Shown here: positions 2 to 13,110 of the stretch, piece by piece
How positions within the stretch are numbered: the stretch's first letter is position 1
How the letters are laid out: the number at the start of each line of letters is the position of its first letter
Assembly: GCA_014379515.1 (NCBI GenBank)
Contig: JACMLR010000373.1
Coordinates: forward strand, 1 to 33,226
Source: Chitinophagaceae bacterium
GTDB lineage: Bacteria; Bacteroidota; Bacteroidia; Chitinophagales; Chitinophagaceae
Length of the DNA: 33,226 nt
Direction of reading: 5' to 3'
The notes under the pieces: generated by a model
Seen by the model: the letters and a program-made list of their open reading frames with translations, nothing else
Database searches by the model: none
What the model was told of the DNA's origin: nothing
Position numbers and translations under genes: made by a program

Positions 2-1606
2 TTTTTTAATGAGATCTATGGTTTTCGGACGCAATATGCATCCGGAAAACTGGATACCCTCGTAACTCAAAAAAAGAGAGTTGTTGATTCGCTCAACAAT
101 CGGTTAAAGAATTATAAGGCGCAGATCGGGCCCACGAGCGGAGAAGCAAAAGCTACCGCGGCTATGTCCGTTGTGCAAGAGTTGTATGGTAAGTATCAGG
201 AAGAGACAAGCAACCTGAATCGGTTAAAGGCTGAGCTTCGCGCGATTGATGAGGAATTAAGAAACATTGGTGGCGGCGGAACAACCACTGCGCCGGTTAA
301 CAATAATAATCGTGAAATTAAGCGATTGCAGGATCGGAATCTTGCTTTGGATAACGAGAAGGAAGGCAAAACGGAGGATGAGCAAAAGCAAATCCAAAAA
401 GAAATCGATGATAATGTAACGAAGATTATCGCGCTATCCGGATCGAAAGGTGGTGGTGATCGCACAAAAGATGCCGATCGGAAAAACACAAGGCGTGATG
501 AATTGGTCAGCCGGAAAATCGGACTTCAACAAGAAATAATTGCAACGGAAGTTAACGTTAGGACCTTCGCAGGAGAAAAAAACAAGTATGAGAAGATGAT
601 CAATGAAGGTGGTGGTGATGAAGTCATGTTAAATGAAATGCAGCGCGACCTTGATCTTGCGTCACGAGAATATGAAGGCTTAAGAAACAGTTTGCAATCT
701 TCACTGGACTTGAACGTAAATCCTGAAAATAACTTTAAGCAAACCTTGATCGGTATGCCGGCTGAAAAAGCCAATCCTTCTCGTCGCGTAATCATGTCTG
801 GTCTCGCAGGATTTCTGATGTTGTTCTTTTCGTCGTTGATTATTCTATTATTGGAATTCCTTGACAACTCATACAAAACACCAACGATTTTCCAGCGTGC
901 TACAAAAATGAAGTTGCTTAGCAGTTTCAACGATATAGATCTGAAGAAAAAAAATCTGCAGGATTATTTCCTTGAAGATGGTCCGAAAAATTCGAGCGAA
1001 CGCATCTTCCTCGAGAATCTCCGCAAGCTCCGCTTCGAACTCGAGAACTCCGGTAAAAAGGTTTTCCTTATTACAAGCACAAGGCCGAAAGAAGGAAAAT
1101 CTACCATCATTGAAGCACTTGCCACAGGTTTCAGCAAATCACATAAGAGGGTATTGATCATCGATGCGAATTTTGCAAATAACACGTTGACTGAAAAGTA
1201 CGGCGTCACTCCGCAACTCGAACAGTTTAGCGTCAATGGCCAACCGAATGCGATGGATAAAATTCGCGCAGCTACGGGATCAACAACAATTCCAAATACT
1301 GATATCATAGGTTGTAATGAAGGAAATTATACCCCTTCAGAAATTTTACCAAAGAATCATCTTTTGGAAAGTATCGATAGAGTTGCTGCCAATTACGACA
1401 TTATTTTCATTGAAGCTTCTTCATTGAATCATCATCCCGATGCGAAAGAATTATCAAAATACGCTGATGGGATCATTGCCGTTTTTTCAGCTACTTCCGC
1501 TGCGGCCCAGGCTGATAAAGAATCAATCGAATACCTTAAAAGTACCGGCAATAAATTAGTCGGAGCGGTATTCAACAAGGTCCAGAAAGAAAACATGGAT
1601 CTTTAA
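2..1606 (+). CDS. Wzc/GumC-like polysaccharide chain-length determinant with BY-kinase-like ATPase domain (5' truncated by window edge)
   Basis: The frame is open from base 2 upstream of the listed Met at 164 (FFNEIYGFRTQYASGKLDTLVTQKKRVVDSLNNRLKNYK...). Coiled-coil region, then a TM segment (VIMSGLAGFLMLFFSSLIILLLEFL), then a P-loop-like STRPKEGKST and VLIIDANF. Confidence 0.85.
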   Translation, partial: FFNEIYGFRTQYASGKLDTLVTQKKRVVDSLNNRLKNYKAQIGPTSGEAKATAAMSVVQELYGKYQEETSNLNRLKAELRAIDEELRNIGGGGTTTAPVNNNNREIKRLQDRNLALDNEKEGKTEDEQKQIQKEIDDNVTKIIALSGSKGGGDRTKDADRKNTRRDELVSRKIGLQQEIIATEVNVRTFAGEKNKYEKMINEGGGDEVMLNEMQRDLDLASREYEGLRNSLQSSLDLNVNPENNFKQTLIGMPAEKANPSRRVIMSGLAGFLMLFFSSLIILLLEFLDNSYKTPTIFQRATKMKLLSSFNDIDLKKKNLQDYFLEDGPKNSSERIFLENLRKLRFELENSGKKVFLITSTRPKEGKSTIIEALATGFSKSHKRVLIIDANFANNTLTEKYGVTPQLEQFSVNGQPNAMDKIRAATGSTTIPNTDIIGCNEGNYTPSEILPKNHLLESIDRVAANYDIIFIEASSLNHHPDAKELSKYADGIIAVFSATSAAAQADKESIEYLKSTGNKLVGAVFNKVQKENMDL

Positions 1607-1646: not shown

Positions 1647-2876
1647 GTGTGGGACTTGCTATTTAACAGCCGTAAGATCCTTAGTCGGAACAGGTATCCC
1701 TGGATCGACTATGCGCGGGGAATTTGTATTATACTCGTCTGCTACCGACATATCTTCGGCGGTGTGATGACGGAGCATTACAGTCCGACAGATCATCCCG
1801 TACTTTCCTATATCAATATCTTCTTCTTCAGTTTTAGAATGCCTTTGTTCTTCATTGTATCAGGGATGTTTTATAAGCTAAGCCAGGAAAATAAAGGGAC
1901 ATCAAATTTTGTTCGAAATCGCGCCCAAACTATTTTATATCCACTGCTCTTATGGGGTACGATCCATATTACGTTACAGTTGCTTTTTGCAGATTATGTA
2001 AATGTTGTTCGGCAGCCCGCAGACTACTTAAAGCTATTATATGAGCCGCGTAGTATTGAGCAGTTTTGGTATTTAAATGCATTGTTTTTTGTTGGAGTTT
2101 CTTATGCCCTGATTTCGAAATATGCATCATTCAATACCGGAAAGCAGCTCGTTTTAGGAATTGTTCTTTACGGTGTGGCCGGGTATCTTCACATGCAGGG
2201 TATTGACGCAGGATTTATTACGGATGTGTTTTTCTTTTATTTCTTTTTCGCAATTGGTGATGCTGTTTCTGGTTTCATGCTCGACAAAAAGCAATTTAAA
2301 AATATTGCCTCCTGGAAAACGTTACTGCTAATACTGCCAGTCTTCATCTTATTGCAGCATTACTTTACAAAACTGAATTTTGATAGCAGTGATGACTACT
2401 ATGTACAAAACACTCAACCAGTTTTGTTTGCTGTTGCCGCGCTGGTTGGGGGAAGCTTCATTATCTGTTGTTCTTTCTTATTACAGAAATCGGGTAAGCT
2501 AAAATTTTTGCGTGTGGTCGGTTATCATTCGATGTACATCTATGTAACGAATTTGATAATCACTTCCGGTACAAGAACCCTGATGATTCGTGTTTTTGGA
2601 ATTGACAATATGTACCTCGTGCTTCTTGTGGGAACTATTGCAGGCATCGTTTTACCGATAATGTTTTATAATATAATGACAAGGGCAGGAGCATGGTGGT
2701 TATTTACCCTGCAGAAGCCACGCGCAATAGCGATGAGAGAGGAAAAAAAAACGATTTTCCGCGGCCTGACCGAGCCAGAGCACAAGCACGTTCAGGAAGC
2801 AATTGAACAGGAAAAACTTAAACAACCATCATGGATGAGTCAAGTAAAGACAGGTCGCCCATATTTGAAAAAATAA
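1647..2876 (+). CDS. Acyltransferase family 3 (OafA/WecH-like) membrane protein
   Basis: 409 aa, GTG start; N-terminal WIDYARGICIILVCYRHIFGG motif and multiple TM segments typical of acyltransferase-3 proteins. Confidence 0.85.
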   Translation: MWDLLFNSRKILSRNRYPWIDYARGICIILVCYRHIFGGVMTEHYSPTDHPVLSYINIFFFSFRMPLFFIVSGMFYKLSQENKGTSNFVRNRAQTILYPLLLWGTIHITLQLLFADYVNVVRQPADYLKLLYEPRSIEQFWYLNALFFVGVSYALISKYASFNTGKQLVLGIVLYGVAGYLHMQGIDAGFITDVFFFYFFFAIGDAVSGFMLDKKQFKNIASWKTLLLILPVFILLQHYFTKLNFDSSDDYYVQNTQPVLFAVAALVGGSFIICCSFLLQKSGKLKFLRVVGYHSMYIYVTNLIITSGTRTLMIRVFGIDNMYLVLLVGTIAGIVLPIMFYNIMTRAGAWWLFTLQKPRAIAMREEKKTIFRGLTEPEHKHVQEAIEQEKLKQPSWMSQVKTGRPYLKK

Positions 2877-2935
2877 GCACGCTATTCGTAATATTTTTTA
2901 TGGTAGCGATGTTTGTAAAATTTATGTTTTTTTAA
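2831..2935 (+). CDS. Candidate small single-TM protein (34 aa), absent from the supplied ORF track
   Basis: ATG at 2831 to TAA at 2933-2935 encodes MDESSKDRSPIFEKISTLFVIFFMVAMFVKFMFF. It overlaps the acyltransferase 3' end in another frame and abuts the TTG start (2936) of the next gene. Confidence 0.5.
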   Translation: MDESSKDRSPIFEKISTLFVIFFMVAMFVKFMFF

Positions 2936-4444
2936 TTGGAGAGGAATATCATATACAGGACGGGCAGTTTTGTGGAGGATTGGTTTAAACACAACTTCCT
3001 CGTTAGAAAACTAAATACACCAACTGGTGCAATTTTGCTTGCGTTGTTAGCGATCGCTATTGCCTATCTCGCAGTTGTTGTAGATATGAAATTTGCCGTT
3101 GCTATTGTTGCAGGACTGGCCGGTGTATTACTAATGGTGCTCTGCCTTCTATATCCAATATTTGGTTTTTACTTAACCTATTTTATTTCGCTTTTCGTAA
3201 CGCTTCCGGAGAAAATAATGAACGGAGGCGTTATACCGATGGGACTCGTTCCGGAATATTTTTCCTACATCACCTTAGTAGGAGTGATCACAAAGCAGGA
3301 ATTTCGTAAAGAAATAAGTCGGAAGTTTTGGACACATGGAATCACCATCTGGCTTGTCGTACTTCTTCTCTATTACCTGATGGAGTTTTTCAATCCTGCT
3401 ATGCTTGGTAAACTTGGCTGGTTTAATTTTATCCGGAAACAAGGAAGCCTGTTCGCATTTTTCTATATCAGTTATTGTATCATTCGCTCGCGAAAGGATG
3501 TTAAACATCTAACCAATTTTTGGATATGGGTCAGTATTCTTGAAGCTGCATATGCATGCAAGCAACAATGGTTCGGTCTTTTTTCGTTTGAAACAAGGTG
3601 GTTATTGAGTGATCCCATGAGGATCGATCTTTTTATCAACTGGGGCTTCACCCGAAAATTCGGCTTGCTGTCGGATCCTGCATCTTCGGGCGTATTGTAT
3701 GCGGCCTGTGGTAACTTTTTATTGGTGCTCGCCCTTCGCGCCGTGACGACCAAACGAAGAATCTTTTTATACGTCGCAGCAATTCTGAACTTGTTGGCTG
3801 CCTCGTATTCAGGTACCCGAACGGCAACAATGATGACCGTCGCGGGAATCCTTTTTTATGGGATCATGACATTGTATGAGAAACGCACGATCATATTTAT
3901 GGCGTTCTGCGGAGCAATGCTTACAATCGTAATGGTGTTGCCGATTTACAACAATCCGGTAATAAACCGGGTGAGGTCAACTTTCGAACCGTCGACAGAT
4001 AACTCCGCTTTAGTTCGTGATATCAACAGAAAGGGGGTTCAACCCTATATCTATCGTCATCCTATCGGTGGGGGGATCTATACATGCGGAAACCTCGGCG
4101 TTCTTTATAATCCGGGCCACTACTTATCTTTTGTACCCCCCGATAGCGGGTATATGCAGATATTAATGGACCAGGGCTATATAGGCTTAATCCTGACGCT
4201 GATCTTCTATTACGTTATCCTCAAAACGGGAATCCGGTATTTTTACAGGGTTAAGGATCCTGAGCTTAAAACACTCTATGCGGCAAACCTGGCTTTCATT
4301 TTTTCGCTTATGGCCGGCCAGATTTCGCAGATGGCAATTCCAATGTATCCAAGTGTATTTTATATGTACTCCGCATTTGCATTACTGTTAAAGATGCACT
4401 ATTTTGACACCGCCAAATCCGACGAAGAGCTACTACCCGCATGA
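2936..4444 (+). CDS. O-antigen ligase/polymerase-like (Wzy/WaaL) membrane protein
   Basis: 502 aa polytopic protein with a TRTATMMT-type segment and a periplasmic loop ending HPIGGGIYTCGNLG..YNPGHYLSFVPPDSGYMQILMDQGYIGLILTL, characteristic of O-antigen ligases. TTG start. Confidence 0.8.
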   Translation: MERNIIYRTGSFVEDWFKHNFLVRKLNTPTGAILLALLAIAIAYLAVVVDMKFAVAIVAGLAGVLLMVLCLLYPIFGFYLTYFISLFVTLPEKIMNGGVIPMGLVPEYFSYITLVGVITKQEFRKEISRKFWTHGITIWLVVLLLYYLMEFFNPAMLGKLGWFNFIRKQGSLFAFFYISYCIIRSRKDVKHLTNFWIWVSILEAAYACKQQWFGLFSFETRWLLSDPMRIDLFINWGFTRKFGLLSDPASSGVLYAACGNFLLVLALRAVTTKRRIFLYVAAILNLLAASYSGTRTATMMTVAGILFYGIMTLYEKRTIIFMAFCGAMLTIVMVLPIYNNPVINRVRSTFEPSTDNSALVRDINRKGVQPYIYRHPIGGGIYTCGNLGVLYNPGHYLSFVPPDSGYMQILMDQGYIGLILTLIFYYVILKTGIRYFYRVKDPELKTLYAANLAFIFSLMAGQISQMAIPMYPSVFYMYSAFALLLKMHYFDTAKSDEELLPA

Positions 4445-5172
4445 ACCACATCAAAATGAATAAAAAATTTCTTCTTATTGCACTTCTTTCGGCTTATTGT
4501 GGCTTTGTGAGCGCTCAAAGTCAACCACCGCGTAGACTTGGGTCGACTTATCACACCAATAATGACACTACGATTTTAATGGATATTCGGGAACGGCTAG
4601 TACAGCTTGCGATGCAAAACCCGAATTTTGAGGTTGCAGACCGCAGAGTAAGCGTAGCGCACTACCAATTGAACAGGGCAAAAGGCGAATGGCTTTCAGT
4701 TGTTGTACCAAGTATCAACTTAAACCCGCTTACTATCGCGCCAAAAAGCGACGGTAACCAGTTTCTTCCACTATGGAACGTCGGAGTCGCAATCCCTTTG
4801 AATTTTTACACGCAACGTACAAACGAAGTCAAGATAGCTCGTGAAAATATCTATATCGCCGAAGCTGAAAAAAATGAACGGTATCGTGATGTTCGCCTGA
4901 AAGTACTGACCCGTTATGAAGATTATCTTATGTACAAGGAGATGTATGATCTTCAAAGCCGCGTCACTGCCGATACTTACCTGGTATTTCGCCAGAGCGA
5001 AACCGACTTCGCCGATGGATTGATTGGGGTTGATATTTACAACAAAGCATTCGCTGCATATAAACAACAACAGGACGGGAAGTTAAAAGCCGGCCGCGAT
5101 CTTAAAGTTGCTGAACTGGAACTTGAATACATGATCGGCATCACGATCAACGAGGCGCTCGGTAAGAAATAA
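4441..5172 (+). CDS. Short TolC-family (OEP-like) outer membrane protein
   Basis: Signal peptide (MNKKFLLIALLSAYCGFVSAQ; the true start is possibly the Met at 4456), then a helix-beta-beta-helix TolC-like pattern. Only 243 aa. 4-bp ATGA overlap with the upstream gene. Confidence 0.7.
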   Translation: MNHIKMNKKFLLIALLSAYCGFVSAQSQPPRRLGSTYHTNNDTTILMDIRERLVQLAMQNPNFEVADRRVSVAHYQLNRAKGEWLSVVVPSINLNPLTIAPKSDGNQFLPLWNVGVAIPLNFYTQRTNEVKIARENIYIAEAEKNERYRDVRLKVLTRYEDYLMYKEMYDLQSRVTADTYLVFRQSETDFADGLIGVDIYNKAFAAYKQQQDGKLKAGRDLKVAELELEYMIGITINEALGKK

Positions 5173-10172: not shown

Positions 10173-10712
10173 TCAACCTATCTTGTTAAAAATTTCAACA
10201 GGTGTTTGACAAATAACGATTCGATCGGAAAGTTCTTCGTACAACATATCTTCCTTCTGCAGCATCTGGAGATGTTGAATCAGGTGGTGATAGAAATTAC
10301 CTGAATTTAAAATGTATATTTTTTTATCATGGATCTTCAACTGATTCCAGGTGAGCATCTCAAATAATTCGTCGAGTGTGCCAAATCCGCCAGGTAATAC
10401 AATGGCGGCATCACATAAATCATAAATCGTTTTTTTTCTTGCATGCATATCGGGGACGACAGCAAGTTCGGTAAGACCCTCATGTTTATGTTCCCACTCC
10501 AATAATAGTTTTGGTATAACGCCAATAATCTGACCACCATGTTGAATTGCCGAGTTAGCCAGGGCCCCCATCAAGCCAATATTTCCGCCGCCATAAATTA
10601 ATTTAAGATTGAGTGCCGCAATAAGTTTCCCGATTTCAGCGGCGTGTTGCATGTAGATAGGTTTTGTTCCCGTCTTTGAGCTGCAGAACACAGCAACAGA
10701 TTCAATATTCAT
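10173..10712 (-). CDS. LOG family protein (TIGR00730-like nucleotide phosphoribohydrolase)
   Basis: 179 aa; VFCSSKTG, LIYGGGNIGLMGALA and PGGFGTLDELFEMLTWNQLKIH (PGGxGTxxE). Confidence 0.92.
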   Translation of the reverse strand: MNIESVAVFCSSKTGTKPIYMQHAAEIGKLIAALNLKLIYGGGNIGLMGALANSAIQHGGQIIGVIPKLLLEWEHKHEGLTELAVVPDMHARKKTIYDLCDAAIVLPGGFGTLDELFEMLTWNQLKIHDKKIYILNSGNFYHHLIQHLQMLQKEDMLYEELSDRIVICQTPVEIFNKIG

Positions 10713-12316: not shown

Positions 12317-12336
12317 CCTGAATTCCCGTTTTATTG

Positions 12337-12385
12337 AATGAATGCCATCCCGGTTTCGCCGAGCGCGACAAGGATGGCATTCATT
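12337..12385. promoter_or_regulatory. Large perfect hairpin (14-bp arms, 21-nt loop) between the SSS transporter and LOG genes
   Basis: AATGAATGCCATCC (12337-12350) and GGATGGCATTCATT (12372-12385) are exact reverse complements. Confidence 0.75.
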
Positions 12386-12411
12386 ATCTAACCCCTCTAA
12401 TTGATTGGTGT

Positions 12412-13110
12412 ATGAATGATACGATCAAATTGAATAAGCAACGCAGATGGTCAGAATCCAAGGCTCATTCGAGCTGGCAGATTTTTAAAATAATGGCTGA
12501 ATTTGTGGATGGCTTTGAAAACCTCGCCAAACTCGGCCCCTGTATTTCAATTTTTGGTTCAGCGAGAACGGAGGCGGGTCATCAATACTATGACCTGGCG
12601 ACAGAGATTGCCAAGCGTCTTTCTGAAGAAGGATTCGGAATTATTTCCGGTGGCGGCCCTGGCATTATGGAAGCTGCAAACAAAGGTGCACAGCTGGGTG
12701 GGGGCAAATCTGTTGGTTTAAATATTGAACTTCCATTCGAACAGCACTCAAATCCTTATATCGATCGTGATGCCAGTCTCAACTTCGACTATTTCTTTGT
12801 ACGTAAAACCCTGTTCACAAAATATTCCCAGGGCTTCGTCATGATGCCGGGAGGTTTTGGTACGATGGATGAATTTTTCGAAGTAGCGACGCTTATCCAA
12901 ACAGGTAAAATGTTACAGGTGCCGCTGATTCTTGTTAGCAAAGATTACTGGTCCGGGCTCCTTACCTGGATGAAAGAAACCATGCTCGACCGCAATAATT
13001 ATATTTCAGCAGCCGATCTTGATCTCCTGCAGGTTGCTGAGACAGCTGAAGAAGTGGTTGAGCAAGTGCTTACATTTTACACGAAACACCCACTTCAGCC
13101 GAACTTCTAA
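12412..13110 (+). CDS. LOG family protein (second, divergent paralogue)
   Basis: PGGFGTMDEFFEVATLIQTGK and ISGGGPGIMEAANKGA. The ATG at 12412 (MNDTIKLNKQRRW) is preferred over the TTG at 12334 because the extra 26 codons run through a 14-bp perfect hairpin. Confidence 0.88.
   Translation: MNDTIKLNKQRRWSESKAHSSWQIFKIMAEFVDGFENLAKLGPCISIFGSARTEAGHQYYDLATEIAKRLSEEGFGIISGGGPGIMEAANKGAQLGGGKSVGLNIELPFEQHSNPYIDRDASLNFDYFFVRKTLFTKYSQGFVMMPGGFGTMDEFFEVATLIQTGKMLQVPLILVSKDYWSGLLTWMKETMLDRNNYISAADLDLLQVAETAEEVVEQVLTFYTKHPLQPNF

Follow-up and report, generated by a model that had tools for sequence, protein, structure and literature searches.

A conserved small membrane protein gene beside a WaaL-fold polymerase or ligase gene in Bacteroidota: a candidate accessory subunit

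A 34-codon open reading frame on the forward strand of a Chitinophagaceae genome, at positions 2831 to 2935 of the window (the whole 33,226-nucleotide stretch of DNA that was analysed), is almost certainly a real gene. There is also very little doubt, judging by the company its homologues keep, that it is linked to the polymerase/ligase-like gene downstream of it and not to the acyltransferase gene upstream. We hypothesize, with a probability of roughly 0.6, that the small protein is an accessory subunit of this downstream enzyme, and we propose a mechanism by which it may act. A subunit of the polymerase is the simplest reading because the protein is a lone helix without a soluble domain, lies beside one polymerase clade, and has a sequence under selection. 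The control of Wzy and WaaL enzymes is poorly understood, and a tiny gene carried throughout a clade of them across a phylum would provide a direct handle on it.

The reading frame from ATG2831 to TAA2935 codes for MDESSKDRSPIFEKISTLFVIFFMVAMFVKFMFF (34 aa). This frame, and the abutment of its TAA on TTG2936, had been reported in a preliminary description of the same DNA and were confirmed in the sequence; the small ORF and the ligase-like ORF are in the same frame. TTG2936 is probably the true start of the ligase-like gene, because its nearest relatives have ATG starts at position 1 of the alignment. At its upstream end the small ORF shares 46 nt, in a different frame, with the tail of an acyltransferase ORF (1647 to 2876, forward strand; PF01757), a neighbour only, whose place is filled by other families in most relatives. 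The overlap with this gene, also part of the preliminary description, is present; it is the longest found in 98 loci and looks incidental. Without comparison to relatives the small ORF is within chance: these 33 kb contain 13 frames of 28-60 aa that open with ATG and include a TM-like segment. The preliminary description expected annotation to miss the ORF, yet the length floors of some annotation programs lie below 34 codons.

Ligase-like relatives were gathered from genomes of the family, the order and the phylum; the named ones belong to Chitinophagaceae and other Bacteroidota, and include Pseudobacter, Pseudoflavitalea and Paraflavitalea. Almost all of them, in several Bacteroidota families, have a small ORF of 29-53 codons immediately in front. 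In a jackknife analysis a profile was rebuilt for each locus without its own sequence and without relatives of at least 50% identity, and up to 650 nt around the junction were scanned. At E<=0.01 this recovered a match in 113/144 upstream regions on the forward strand versus 1/144 on the reverse strand, and at E<=1e-4 the figures were 109 and 0, in a set of 144 records that includes a few duplicates of the same genome. The window protein itself was found with an E-value of 2.7e-12 when its close relatives were left out. The pooled pN/pS across 20 independent pairs was 0.26 (280 differences at 429 synonymous sites, 275 at 1623 nonsynonymous sites), a value taken from difference counts without correction for multiple hits, at sites that are partly non-independent, which makes the formal p-value a rough guide. 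Together with its relatives the ORF lies far beyond chance, and judged from its sequences the small protein is under purifying selection. The preliminary description would have been refuted by relatives that lack such an ORF at this junction; that test was applied here, and the small ORF came through clearly.

The distribution of the small gene follows that of one group of ligase-like genes. In a ligase tree of 142 rows, 121 of the 126 rows of one clade carry the small gene (113 by profile and 8 by eye), five have no recognisable copy, and none of the 16 rows outside the clade has one. Support for the fork that sets this clade apart is moderate (93). Presence and absence on the tree can be explained by 6 changes, as opposed to 19.8 for shuffled labels. 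Among 200 family-level genomes, 71 of the 73 strong profile matches lie upstream of a ligase on the same strand, although some of these matches had served to train the profile; the small gene and the ligase occur together in 70 genomes, the small gene alone in 2 and the ligase alone in 12. One exception among the 73 (G068) is a match within 200 nt of a contig end, and the other is an orphan small gene in G147, a genome in which a search found no ligase. Other genomes of the order gave 25 matches, two of which (G448 and G463) are copies of training sequences. The remaining 23 comprise 19 upstream of a ligase, 2 inside long ORFs (G395 and G424) and 2 elsewhere (G297 and G439). This near one-to-one linkage across the phylum supports the earlier suggestion of a small membrane partner of the ligase or polymerase. 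The sister species G001, the only other congeneric genome compared, has neither the ligase-like gene nor the small gene, and the locus is therefore variable within the genus.

The homologues are proteins of 29-53 aa with a short polar N-terminus and, by hydropathy, one TM helix. In the window protein the helix is predicted at residues 15-34 (2873 to 2932, forward strand), right up to the C-terminus, on the basis of family hydropathy and AlphaFold2; AlphaFold2 applied to the small protein alone places a helix at residues 10-33. The family ending is F-h-K-h-L-F-[F/L], represented in the window by F-V-K-F-M-F-F (2912 to 2932, forward strand), in which Lys30 is fifth from the end. Counted across 102 homologues, Lys occurs at -5 in 93, Phe at -2 in 88, and Phe or Tyr at -7 in 89. 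In 95/102, the part of the last 20-21 residues that precedes position -5 contains no D, E, K, R, N or Q. The window protein fits the family as defined on alignment A1 by a single TM segment with the end F-h-K-h-L-F-[F/L] and a position immediately before the ligase gene of the clade. A topology with the N-terminus inside is a guess, hinted at in the more basic members by the positive charges that precede the helix; over all members the charge bias is weak, with K+R exceeding D+E before the helix in 48/102. If the topology is N-in, the conserved lysine would lie at the periplasmic side, the side on which the lipid-pyrophosphate donor binds. One subgroup (loci such as L079, L082, L085, L088 and L096) has a longer N-terminus that starts M-R-h-x-P; the gene upstream of this subgroup encodes a glycosyltransferase-like membrane protein whose conserved tail reads ‘SVAT.H’.

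The downstream gene (2936 to 4444, forward strand) encodes a homologue, with a predicted WaaL fold, of the Wzy_C ‘O-antigen ligase’ family (PF04932, E 4e-11, 43.3 bits versus a curated cut-off of 31.7). For structure prediction the small ORF was read through its TAA into the ligase, with an alignment of 39 naturally in-frame pairs, and the AlphaFold2 model of this fusion has a mean pLDDT of 87.3 and a pTM of 0.86. Its best Foldseek match in the PDB is WaaL (7tpg_B, E 1.9e-5, probability 1.00), with FtsW a weak second; sequence searches of the PDB with the ligase or fusion profile returned nothing, or only designed helical proteins. The predicted fold and the family of the partner are those common to WaaL/Wzy_C (PF04932) and the inverting polysaccharide polymerases of clan GT-C1. 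Conserved arginines, and an acidic residue where the ligase has its His, are described for that clan (PMC10920833), and Meitil et al. report that Asp or Glu replaces the O-ligase His in nearly all of its polymerase families (PMC10920833). The invariant residues of the partner include Arg295, Arg361 and Asp403, the last of which (PPDSGY) sits in the region corresponding to the catalytic His of O-ligases, matched by region and not residue by residue. We favour a Wzy-type polymerase over an O-antigen ligase because of this Asp/Glu pattern and because of the locus, which here holds a Wzc-like gene and an OEP gene and in relatives has flippase-like and glycosyltransferase-like neighbours. The Wzc-like gene (164 to 1606, forward strand; TIGR01007, CbiA/AAA_31) encodes the C-terminal part of a chain-length/tyrosine kinase protein and is open to the left end of the window. 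The OEP gene (4441 to 5172, forward strand; PF02321, E 7.9e-18) encodes an outer-membrane protein of a short TolC type, and in 51/66 relatives an OEP protein likewise follows the ligase.

We propose that the product of the small gene would be a 34-aa single-pass inner-membrane protein dedicated to the adjacent WaaL-fold (GT-C) polymerase or ligase of an exopolysaccharide locus of the Wzx/Wzy type. The small gene and the polymerase gene would be translated together, and the helix would insert with its N-terminus in the cytoplasm. Once in the membrane, it would pack on the TM bundle of the polymerase and stabilise or activate the enzyme, and the C-terminal F-x-K-x-L-F-F would bring a single lysine to the periplasmic surface, close to the site of the undecaprenyl-pyrophosphate-linked sugar. 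Expression, coupling, topology, physical contact and activation are all steps that we infer. AlphaFold2 confidence was considered as evidence of docking and rejected: the block means for residues 11-30 were 96 and 96 in the fusion and 91 and 96 for the protein alone, and because helix confidence is high in both settings the prediction is uninformative on contact. Inter-protein mutual information across 102 pairs gave a top z of 5.9 versus shuffled maxima of up to 5.7, no better than shuffled. More tentatively, and with rather less than an even chance of being right, the protein may be an obligate subunit of 30-50 aa for a phylum-wide clade of WaaL/Wzy-fold polymerases, its C-terminal lysine helping to handle the lipid-pyrophosphate substrate. 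If so, an enzyme class for which we found no such partner described would have a small dedicated subunit of its own.

An arrangement of this kind has a precedent in RodA, on whose TM8 and TM9 the single TM helix of PBP2 packs; this helix on its own stimulates the polymerase activity of RodA (PMC10449877), and SEDS proteins and O-ligases belong to one structural subclass (PMC10920833). Both cases have a single-TM partner beside a GT-C-fold polymerase that uses undecaprenyl-pyrophosphate, contact being presumed for the small protein. However, PBP2 is itself a large enzyme and has a periplasmic domain, whereas the small protein is a helix with a short tail and stands beside an enzyme of the WaaL/Wzy type.

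Among known small proteins of Wzy-dependent pathways the nearest is RmpD of Klebsiella, also a one-helix protein tied to the synthesis of a polysaccharide (PMC10294653). RmpD is a TM protein of 49-58 aa that binds Wzc and alters capsule chain length (PMC10294653), and by analogy the small protein could regulate chain length through the Wzc/Wzz-like co-polymerase of the locus, any effect on the polymerase being indirect. A Wzc-like gene is present in the window locus and is the direct upstream neighbour in 17/98 loci; the constant neighbour, however, is the ligase-like gene. The architectures differ as well. RmpD has an N-terminal TM segment followed by a basic cytoplasmic C-terminal part with conserved positive charges; the small protein has its TM segment at the C-terminus, without a basic tail, only four residues follow the lysine in 93/102, and the linked gene is that of the polymerase/ligase. 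We therefore regard a regulator acting on Wzc as unlikely.

The spacing of the two genes raises another alternative, namely that translation of the small ORF mainly serves to bring ribosomes to the start codon of the ligase-like gene (TTG in the window), the peptide itself being of minor importance. From the stop of the small gene to the nearest in-frame start codon of the ligase is -8 to +25 nt in 93/102 loci, which is consistent with translational coupling, and the small gene overlaps its upstream neighbour in 27/98. A pure leader, however, would need neither purifying selection on its amino acids nor a fixed hydrophobic C-terminus with a lysine, and this possibility is improbable.

A subunit of the polymerase must also be distinguished from a detached piece of it. 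The two ORFs are in the same frame and immediately adjacent in the window and in 38 other usable loci, as they would be if the small protein were the split-off N-terminal TM helix of the ligase-like protein. In other relatives, however, the two are out of frame or farther apart. Because ligases without a small gene show no additional N-terminal TM segment in a hydropathy comparison, the small protein does not resemble a split-off part of the enzyme, and we give such an origin a very low probability.

The preliminary description had also offered the acyltransferase as a possible partner, the two genes overlapping in the window. Across 98 loci the upstream neighbour is glycosyltransferase-like, of two kinds (24 and 21 loci), an acyltransferase (17), Wzc-like (17), flippase-like (8), methyltransferase-like (4), acetyltransferase-like (3) or one of several single others; these family names come from a reading of the sequences, except for the groups that hold the relatives of the window's acyltransferase and Wzc-like proteins. 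The constant partner is therefore the ligase-like gene, since the upstream gene varies. With the small gene tracking the ligase clade and the acyltransferase upstream in so few loci, a small membrane partner of the acyltransferase is scarcely credible. A functionless chance ORF, of which the 13 short TM-like ORFs of the window might be a reminder, has next to no probability and is ruled out by the jackknife, its reverse-strand control and the pN/pS of 0.26, and the linkage to the ligase clade and within the 200 genomes stands against it too.

Searches of the open-licence literature turned up no account of a small partner dedicated to Wzy or WaaL in Bacteroidota, and 69 members of the small-protein family gave no consistent or significant match in Pfam, NCBIfam or PHROG. 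The family could well have an entry already, whether as an anonymous cluster in catalogues of small proteins or as a genome annotation of a hypothetical protein. The case shows that a gene can be conserved beside an enzyme of a well-known kind and yet be missing from Pfam and NCBIfam. Should these polymerases depend on the small protein for activity, expressing them in a foreign host may call for the small gene as well.

Several loci depart from the common arrangement. At L203 (G147:C34:57500-61088) an orphan small ORF occupies the frame 2838-3065 on the minus strand with no ligase after it, and at its end the small reading frame overlaps an ATP-grasp-like gene encoded on the other strand; this looks like a recombination or deletion joint. 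L204 (G297:C27:1-4000) has a good homologue at 194-301, near the contig start, followed by an ATP-grasp-like gene, and the ligase is on another contig. Tandem ligase-like genes occur within one locus in G239:C6, G321:C20 and G592:C5, and in G592 the first copy has a small-protein match upstream. In the window itself, the OEP gene codes for just 243 aa, roughly half the usual length of a TolC-type protein, and farther along two LOG-type genes (Lysine_decarbox, PF03641), at 10173-10712 on the reverse strand and 12334-13110 on the forward strand, flank a sodium:solute symporter gene.
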